Part shown: positions 18,395 to 20,631 of the stretch, in pieces
Layout of the letters: every line of letters begins with the position of its first letter
Numbering within the stretch: the stretch's first letter is position 1
Assembly (NCBI GenBank): GCA_903860195.1
Contig: CAIOPO010000100.1
Location: 1 to 52,922, forward strand
Source: an uncultured Opitutia bacterium
GTDB taxonomy: Bacteria > Verrucomicrobiota > Verrucomicrobiia > Opitutales > UBA953
Length of the DNA stretch: 52,922 bases
Direction of reading: 5' to 3'
Translations under genes and position numbers: made by a program
The notes under the pieces: generated by a model
The model's database searches: none
What the model was told of the DNA's origin: nothing
The model's input: only the letters and a program-made list of their open reading frames with translations

Positions 18395-18829
18395 TCAGCG
18401 GCGCAGGTTGGAGGAGATGCGGGAGATGAGCTTCTGGCTCTCCGGCAGGTTGCCGAAAGCGCCGTACTTGATGGACACGGCGGTGTAGGTCTCGTTCTTC
18501 TCCTTGTCCTCGGTCTTGACGATTTCGACGGTGACGAGGAGGTCGCCGACCGAGCGCGCGAACACTTTGACGCCGACCTTGTCCTGGGCTCCGCCGGATC
18601 CGGTGATGTCGGATTCGCCCGTGCGCATCATGCCGGGGGTCTGGTCGAGGGAGCGGTTGACCGCGTTGAAGACATTTTCCACCGGCGCGTTGTAGCGGGT
18701 GGTGACCACTCCTGAGATCTGGCTGGCGGTGGCCTCACGGCTGTCCGGATTGTCGACGCCGACGTTGGTGTTGCAGCCGGTGAAGGCGACGGCGGAGGCA
18801 AGGAGTGCGGTGGCGAGGGCGTGCTTCAT
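18395..18829 (-). CDS. Putative lipoprotein
   Basis: MKHALATALLASAVAFTGCNTN signal with lipobox-like TGC; start trimmed to ATG 18829. Confidence 0.7.
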   Translation of the reverse strand: MKHALATALLASAVAFTGCNTNVGVDNPDSREATASQISGVVTTRYNAPVENVFNAVNRSLDQTPGMMRTGESDITGSGGAQDKVGVKVFARSVGDLLVTVEIVKTEDKEKNETYTAVSIKYGAFGNLPESQKLISRISSNLRR

Positions 18830-19087
18830 GGTGTCGGTGGAGGATGGGGTGGAGAAAGCACAGGCCGGGAGGATTGGCAAACGATTTCGCCCCCGGCCGA
18901 AGGCCCCGGGCGCGACCATTTGTAGTTAAAAAACAACTACATACGGCCCGACTCTCCGGCCGCCCCGCCGCCGGATCCGCGCTTCTGTCGGCCGCCAGGA
19001 GGGGCTGCTTGCTGATCTTGGCGGTAAGCGGAGTCACAAATATCTGATAAACAATACTTTGAGTATTAAAATGACTGTTTACACTCA

Positions 19088-19093
19088 TATAAT
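19088..19093 (+). promoter_or_regulatory. Candidate -10 element (TATAAT) for the dcw operon
   Basis: Perfect TATAAT in an AT-rich gap upstream of mraZ; no good -35 at 17 bp. Confidence 0.4.
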
Positions 19094-19123
19094 TGGAAAT
19101 ACCTGGATCTGTGAACAAGAAAA

Positions 19124-19189
19124 TGGGCGAACTTGGGGCTAAAACCTTGACCAGTGGGGGAGTGTGGGGAAAAGTGGGCGAACTGGGGG
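19124..19189 (+). promoter_or_regulatory. Candidate MraZ operator array (TGGG boxes at helical spacing)
   Basis: TGGG at 19124, 19134, 19155, 19165, 19175, with a sixth G-tract (TGGGGG) at 19184/19185. Confidence 0.72.
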
Positions 19190-19203
19190 CTTCCTCCCAT
19201 TCC

Positions 19204-19662
19204 ATGTCCATTGGCGCTAACAACCTTCTCTTCACCGGCATCCACAACGGAAAGCTGGATGAGAAGAACCGCGTCACCATCCCGGCCTCCTGGCGTTCGG
19301 ACGGCGCCGGCGACCTCAATTTCCTGGCGATGTTCCACCCGGCGCTCGGCACCGTCGTCGTGTTCCCTCCTTCCATGGTGCAGCGGATCCGCGACGCCTC
19401 GTCGCAGGTCACGGTGAGCGATCCGGACAAGATGAACGCGCTCCGCACGCTCGGCGAGAACAGCCTGCAGGTCGTCTGCGACAAGGCCGGTCGCATCACG
19501 CTCAACGAGCACGTCGTCCGCCAGGCGAAGCTCGAGCGCGACGTCGTGTTCAGCGGCTCGTTCAGCACGTTCCAGATCGCCTCGCCGACGCCGCCGCGCG
19601 CCGACCGCGACTCGGAGTCCGCCCGCACCATCCTCCGCGCGCTGCGCGAACTGGGACTCTGA
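19204..19662 (+). CDS. mraZ: Transcriptional regulator MraZ
   Basis: NLLFTGIHNGKLDEKNRVTIPASWR SpoVT-AbrB-type core; start chosen at 19204 rather than 19093 because the upstream segment is the TGGG array. Confidence 0.88.
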   Translation: MSIGANNLLFTGIHNGKLDEKNRVTIPASWRSDGAGDLNFLAMFHPALGTVVVFPPSMVQRIRDASSQVTVSDPDKMNALRTLGENSLQVVCDKAGRITLNEHVVRQAKLERDVVFSGSFSTFQIASPTPPRADRDSESARTILRALRELGL

Positions 19663-19713
19663 CTTGTATCCACTTTTTATTTACACTGCTCACAGTTTGT
19701 TCACAGACCGCCG

Positions 19714-20631
19714 ATGACCAGCCACGTGCCAGTCCTGCTGGAGGAGTGCATGACGCTCCTCGCCCCCGCGGAGGGGCGCGCCTACCTGGACTGCACCTAC
19801 GGCGGCGGCGGCCACACGGAGGCGATGCTCGCGCGCGGCGCGAGGGTGGACGCCATGGACCGTGACCCTGAGGCGGCGGAGCGCGCGCGCGCGACCTCGG
19901 TCCGGCATCCGGACCGCTTCCGCTTCCATCCGGAGGATTTCCGGCACCTTGACCGCGTTCCGGGACGGTATGATGGCGTACTGATGGACATTGGGGTGTC
20001 CTCGTATCAGCTCGACGTCCCGGAACGCGGCTTCGCCTTCAGGCATGACGGCCCGCTCGACATGCGCATGGACACCGCCCGCGGTCGGACCGCCGCCGAA
20101 TTCCTCGAGCGGGGCGGCCGTGATGAGATCGTCCGGGCCGTCCGTGATTACGGCGAGGAGCCGCGCTGGCGCCGCGTCGTCGACGCGATCCTGGCCGCGC
20201 GCGGCACGGGACGCCTCGCGCGCACCGCGTCCTTCGCCGAACTGGTGGCCGAGGCGGCCCCGCCGCCTCCGGGACCCCGCGGCGCCCATCCCGCCACGCG
20301 CACCTTCCAAGGGGTGCGCATCGCGGTGAACGACGAGCTGGGCGCGCTCGAGGAGGCGCTGCCCTCGGCCTTCGGCAAGCTTCTGGACGGCGGCGTGCTC
20401 GCCGTCATCTCCTTCCACTCCCTCGAGGACCGCATGGTGAAGCGTTACATGAACGGCCTGGCCGGACGGCCGGTCGACCGTGACGACGCGACCCCGCAGG
20501 ACGAGCGGGTGCGGCGCGCCGAACTGCTCACGCGCCGAGCCGTCAAGCCGTCCGACGAGGAGCAGGTCCGCAACCCCCGCAGCCGGTCCGCCCGGCTCCG
20601 CGCCGTGAGGAGGCTCGCCGAACCGCGATGA
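19714..20631 (+). CDS. rsmH: 16S rRNA (cytosine1402-N4)-methyltransferase
   Basis: SHVPVLLEECMTLL, DCTYGGGGHTEAML, DIGVSSYQLD, RTFQGVRIAVNDELG, SFHSLEDRMVK. Confidence 0.97.
   Translation: MTSHVPVLLEECMTLLAPAEGRAYLDCTYGGGGHTEAMLARGARVDAMDRDPEAAERARATSVRHPDRFRFHPEDFRHLDRVPGRYDGVLMDIGVSSYQLDVPERGFAFRHDGPLDMRMDTARGRTAAEFLERGGRDEIVRAVRDYGEEPRWRRVVDAILAARGTGRLARTASFAELVAEAAPPPPGPRGAHPATRTFQGVRIAVNDELGALEEALPSAFGKLLDGGVLAVISFHSLEDRMVKRYMNGLAGRPVDRDDATPQDERVRRAELLTRRAVKPSDEEQVRNPRSRSARLRAVRRLAEPR

Follow-up and report, generated by a model that had tools for sequence, protein, structure and literature searches.

The phased TGGG boxes at positions 19124 to 19189 of the window, by which we mean the whole stretch of 52,922 nucleotides that was analysed, probably form an autoregulatory MraZ operator that is built into the mraZ/dcw promoter and represses by occlusion. 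There is good support for taking the array as a MraZ operator: it lies directly upstream of an mraZ gene that heads the dcw cluster, it has at least three repeats at 10-bp steps, it is kept in relatives, and MraZ itself is encoded in the genome. TTGAC stands directly before four core boxes at 10-bp steps, and an extra box lies 21 bp upstream of the first of them. The first-pass annotation of this DNA had proposed an expanded MraZ operator upstream of mraZ; the phased, conserved operator stands, but its position after a TATAAT and its doubled size do not. Most bacteria have MraZ at the front of the cluster for division and the cell wall, but work on MraZ operators covers few lineages. Here the array appears to be built into the promoter across the order, to reach past the -35 in the family, and to have evolved by whole helical turns in the genus.

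The box array and its locus

On direct reading of the window, TGGG starts at 19124, 19134, 19155, 19165 and 19175 and GGGGG runs from 19185, giving steps of 10, 21, 10, 10 and 10 (or 9) bp. We designate these, all on the + strand, as MraZ boxes A (TGGGC, 19124-19128), B (TGGGG, 19134-19138), 1 (TGGGG, 19155-19159), 2 (TGGGG, 19165-19169) and 3 (TGGGC, 19175-19179), and degenerate box 4 (GGGGG, 19185-19189). This sixth tract comprises T19184 and the GGGGG of 19185-19189, and is in exact 10-bp phase if counted from 19185, where G replaces the T of the box. The best cluster of TGGG in a single register (10 bp, ±1) within 62 bp has six members in the window, while 200 dinucleotide shuffles of the window gave a maximum of four, reached once, and never six. 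The starts and the steps of 10, 21, 10, 10 and 9-10 bp that the first-pass annotation had listed were thus all correct, and its placing of the array on one helix face holds, with six TGGG in register against a shuffle maximum of four and with box A behaving as a whole-turn unit (see below).

A search of the 2.1 Mb genome for TGGGN6TGGGN6TGGG gave the array as its single match, with none in the control, and allowing one mismatch across the same 2.1 Mb added only an overlapping match inside the array. In its own genome the MraZ operator appears to serve the mraZ locus only, and a wider MraZ regulon was rejected for want of any further genome site with at most one mismatch. The 17-bp near-identical repeat that had been pointed out at 19124 and 19175, TGGGCGAACT[T/G]GGGGCT, is real, and these are the only two copies in the window at up to two mismatches (0.10 expected). 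It was rejected as a functional unit, since relatives do not conserve it as a repeat, and is probably a by-product of the box motif.

The mraZ coding sequence (19204-19662, + strand, 152 aa) scores 36.6 bits against PF02381 (cut-off 23), while the NCBIfam MraZ models match its product below their cut-offs. The two DxxxR DNA-binding motifs, D19/R23 and D93/R97, do not vary across 31 proteins, E. coli MraZ among them, and the predicted product is a divergent MraZ with both motifs intact. A six-frame PF02381 search of the own genome gave no match at 0.001, although the translated protein clears the cut-off in hmmscan, so family searches under-report this divergent MraZ. From its ATG at 19204, mraZ is followed by rsmH (mraW; 19714-20631, + strand; TIGR00006, 265 bits; PF01795), a small ORF at the ftsL position, an FtsI-type transpeptidase (PBP) and murE; judged by this gene order, mraZ is the head of a canonical dcw cluster.

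The mraZ frame is open from a TTG at 19093 through the array, which is the one point in favour of regarding the boxes as coding sequence of a longer MraZ. That reading, together with a chance G-rich stretch, can be given next to no probability. In-frame stops lie at most 29 codons upstream of the conserved ATG in 49 of 52 congeners, so the array is non-coding, the start ATGTC[TC]A is conserved among congeners, and the strong conservation in 10-bp steps is of a non-coding kind. Translation from 19093, which the annotation had named as one case that would undo its reading, is ruled out by the same stops, and this start was rejected.

Conservation in the genus, family and order

The upstream regions of 52 congeneric genomes were aligned; these sequences are related, so that 52 of 52 does not mean 52 independent events. 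Relatives throughout are Opitutae and Verrucomicrobiota genomes, nearly all metagenome-assembled and many of them draft bins. Boxes 1 and 2 read TGG, and box 3 TGGG, in all 52 congeners. The third G is missing from box 1 in 19 and from box 2 in 11 of them, which makes the affinity of each box uncertain. Box 4 reads NGGG in 46/52 and TGGG in 2/52. Box B is NGGG in 48/52 congeners and TGGG in 12 of 20 anchored family members of other genera. In the turn skipped between boxes B and 1 nothing box-like occurs in any of the 52; it is occupied by a probable -35, TTGACC (19147-19152, + strand). In all 52 congeners TTGAC (TTGCC in one) is separated from box 1 by exactly 3 bp, and the 3-bp gap holds in 19 of the 20 anchored family members of other genera. 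The annotation had suggested looking in related Verrucomicrobia for conserved TGGG phasing and a conserved skipped turn, and both are kept in the congeners, with similar arrays across the order. Its picture of two clusters separated by a skipped turn is right as to the conserved spacing, yet the turn holds the invariant TTGAC, and the B box is present as NGGG in 48/52.

Box A is a clade-specific extra unit, with TGGG in 14/52 congeners and the 10-bp unit missing in 20/52. A TGTG element (loosely TGT[GT]NANAA) is present just upstream of the boxes in all 52 congeners; 20 genomes have it 14 bp from box B, 30 have it at 24 bp and two at 25 bp. The 14-bp genomes are without box A, and the longer ones have an extra box position; of the 30 with a distance of 24 bp, 14 have an intact TGGG there. 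Since the distances differ by one turn and box A is absent from the shorter form, box A is a one-turn unit gained or lost. This supports the view that helical face matters, and whole-turn evolution within the genus would in turn support a ring-shaped MraZ that reads one face of the DNA. By this comparison the operator in the window is the long form, with a four-box core of the usual size. The earlier estimate of roughly double the E. coli set is right in that boxes B and A are extra, but the four core boxes are normal for MraZ: with three TGGG and a degenerate fourth in E. coli K-12 and four repeats in Burkholderia cenocepacia (PMC7761207), the core is not expanded.

Outside the family but within the order, the core boxes are kept, the TTGAC gap varies from 2 to 5 bp, and box B is found in 1 of 16 anchored members. 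Of 132 order genomes, 35 contain the pattern TTGACN3TGGN7TGGN7TGG, where the reversed pattern gave 6. On re-scanning 29 of the order loci with the forward pattern, mraZ was found on 28. One order member (L137, G144:C117) carries a second TTGACCAGTGGGGCGCAATGGG site away from mraZ, close to a PrmA-like methyltransferase gene and an HTH-domain gene on the opposite strand; it is possibly a second MraZ target or a chance match. Among more distant Verrucomicrobiota, many mraZ genes have, by eye, TTGAC beside 10-bp-phased GTG/TGG repeats. In other lineages of the phylum (L200, L201, L205, L224, L231, L234), TAGGG-type 10-bp-phased repeats replace TGGG before mraZ, suggesting that MraZ specificity may have shifted within the phylum.

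One turn past box 4 is CCCA on the + strand (19196-19199; TGGG on the - strand), which could be an inverted box or a stem partner. Its CCC is invariant in 30 distinct sequences and its A is kept in 29. Box 4 and this CCCA (19184-19199; centre exactly 10 bp later) are able to pair in every congener. Pair counts among the congeners gave no covariation above shuffles, and in 9 of the 30 distinct sequences the A is kept where its partner no longer pairs. The element may be part of an mRNA 5' hairpin or an inverted fifth box. An Rfam search of 18700-20000 gave no match.

Promoter position and mode of control

With TTGAC taken as the -35, TATAAT matches were scored over spacers; genus, family and order all give the best match at 17 bp. 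The A at -11 and the T at -7 are present in 100% of distinct genus sequences and in 82% of family ones. In the window the form is TTGACC-17-AAAAGT, with the probable -10 (AAAAGT, 19170-19175, + strand; 3/6 match) overlapping box 3, whose T is its last T. The same bases also resemble the AAAGTG MraZ consensus, and since they are MraZ-box context as well, the promoter call depends on the operator. TTGACC/AAAAGT as an embedded promoter is thus suggestive, and it is most likely that the operator overlaps the promoter. An E. coli-type layout, in which boxes follow a conserved -10, was not found, as far as the putative promoter is relied upon.

The window also holds TTAAAA-16-TATAAT (19066-19093; TATAAT at 19088), a 10/12 match to the sigma-70 consensus that is better than the embedded promoter. 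If transcription started from this pair, the operator would lie downstream of the promoter and MraZ would act as a road-block, as the first-pass annotation had favoured. In E. coli the boxes do follow TTGACA and GTAAACT, and in B. cenocepacia the repeats overlap the start site (PMC7761207). We nevertheless consider this arrangement unlikely. The TATAAT is found in the upstream stretch of only 4/52 congeners, unaligned, and promoter-like matches there occur in 6/52 against 5.6 expected, which is chance level; the invariant TTGAC would moreover stay unexplained. TATAAT 19088 was accordingly rejected as a conserved promoter, though it is possibly a species-specific second start, and the road-block argument drawn from it finds no support, the invariant TTGAC filling the skipped turn and having its best -10 match at 17 bp, within the array. 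With an operator that most likely overlaps the promoter and a TATAAT at 19088 that lacks conservation, occlusion fits better than road-block. Between the divergent DUF3568 gene and mraZ, most congeners have a loosely conserved dyad around GACTGA-NN-TCAGTC (19065-19095), perfect in 5/52, which is possibly an operator or divergent promoter.

For repression by occlusion, TTGACC (19147) would serve as the -35 and AAAAGT (19170) as the -10. Adjacent subunits of a ring-shaped MraZ would contact adjacent boxes on one DNA face, and the ring would cover the -35, spacer, -10 and start, shutting off its own promoter; box B, and A where present, would extend the MraZ clamp beyond the -35. This agrees with the repressor role that PMC8475190 describes for MraZ of E. 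coli and of M. genitalium, and with MraZ as the dcw regulator on four repeats in B. cenocepacia (PMC7761207). MraZ could instead be an activator or dual regulator, with boxes A and B, about 46-58 bp upstream of the putative start, recruiting RNA polymerase while the core tunes expression. In favour of this, the -35 has box B directly before it and the putative -10 is of the weak kind seen at activated promoters; but core boxes over the spacer, -10 and start would block polymerase, few order members outside the family have box B (1/16, as above), and an M. genitalium mraZ mutant shows raised transcription of the division cluster (PMC8475190), so that we regard activation as improbable. Still less is to be expected of a DNA or RNA G-quadruplex controlling mraZ, which is very unlikely even though boxes 1-4 fit G3+N1-7 four times and a G-quadruplex has been reported in S. 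aureus PmraZ (PMC11796246). The four-tract G3+ motif is present in 33/52 congeners, 5/24 other family members and 3/17 order members, that is, it is missing from 19, 19 and 14 of them, while TGG spacing is kept in 52/52. What is conserved in the genus is box spacing and not G4 potential, and the G-quadruplex was rejected as a conserved constraint.

DnaA-box-like sites and comparison with known systems

A DnaA-box-like 9-mer, TTGTTCACA (19110-19118, - strand; it reads TGTGAACAA on the + strand), lies upstream of the boxes, in congeners at 14, 24 or 25 bp from box B. Four more such 9-mers make up a block between mraZ and rsmH, GTATCCANAAGTTACTTACACTACTCACACCTTATTCACA (19666-19705, 40 bp, + strand), with starts at 19666, 19677, 19686 and 19697, the last being TTGTTCACA again. 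The block is near-invariant in 42/42 congeners examined, with start spacings of 11/9/11, and a further genus of the family (L134, L135) has related TCCACA/TTATTCACA repeats. The DnaA box consensus is TTATCCACA (PMC8203912). Both copies of TTGTTCACA (19110 - and 19697 +) are one letter from TTATNCACA, and congeners often carry TTATTCACA or TTATCCACA in their places; in most genomes the TGTG element reads TTGTTCACA, TTATTCACA or TTATCCACA on its other strand.

TTRTNCACA has 17 matches in the 2.1 Mb genome (control 5), among which those at 19110 and 19697 flank mraZ and one precedes dnaA. Within 200 bp upstream of mraZ, 41/52 congeners have the strict motif, as do 10/24 other family members and 27/67 order loci, against shuffle expectations of 1.2, 1.0 and 2.4; there is overlap between the two order sets, and the second of them takes in some congeners. 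One TTGTTCACA stands in front of dnaA, and no oriC cluster was seen in the incomplete genome. A replication origin at the mraZ-rsmH cluster was rejected, there being no GC skew minimum there, as was contig C52 as oriC, which carries lpxC/fabZ-like and anthranilate-synthase-like genes and no DnaA-box cluster.

We infer DnaA binding at the 9-mers flanking mraZ, and the site one or two turns upstream would probably provide a replication-linked input. That the locus is a composite switch, with a MraZ operator over the dcw promoter and a box beyond its -35, a DnaA site phased with box B at 14 or 24-25 bp and a second DnaA-box cluster between mraZ and rsmH, is a tentative proposal that we hold to be possible rather than probable. 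If this is true, the two proteins DnaA and MraZ would in Opitutales jointly couple the expression of genes for division and the cell wall to the initiation of replication.

The E. coli Pmra promoter and its MraZ operator were reportedly described by Eraso et al. in 2014. Re-read from the K-12 sequence, this operator has three TGGG and a degenerate fourth G-tract (AAGGGG) at 10-bp steps. Like the present array it consists of TGGGN direct repeats at 10-bp steps upstream of mraZ in dcw, with a degenerate fourth repeat, which is GGGGG here. In E. coli, however, the boxes follow the -10 and none lies upstream of the -35, whereas here they begin 3 bp after TTGAC, overlap the spacer and the putative -10, and are joined upstream by boxes B and A. 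MraZ of B. cenocepacia binds, by EMSA, a fragment with four 7-nt repeats separated by 3-nt spacers (PMC7761207). PmraBc resembles the present layout in these repeats and spacers and in being one promoter for the dcw operon (PMC7761207), but its repeats lie downstream of the -10 over a start 100 bp before mraZ, whereas about 20 bp separate the ATG from the putative start in the present case.

For Mollicutes, in the account of Fisunov et al. 2016 given in PMC8475190, the MraZ site consists of AAAGTG[T/G] repeats, and the M. genitalium chromosome has just one such site. The direct repeats with a GTG core and the lone M. genitalium site upstream of mraZ are similar to what is found here; the AAAGTG[T/G] consensus belongs to AT-rich genomes, and a bipartite layout is not described in that account. 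DnaA boxes are known at division genes, namely at the B. subtilis ftsL promoter, C. crescentus ftsZ and E. coli ftsQA (PMC8203912). The 9-mers described here are likewise DnaA-box-like sites at a division promoter, and differ from ftsL, ftsZ and ftsQA in that the predicted sites flank mraZ, are phased with the MraZ boxes and are kept in the genus.
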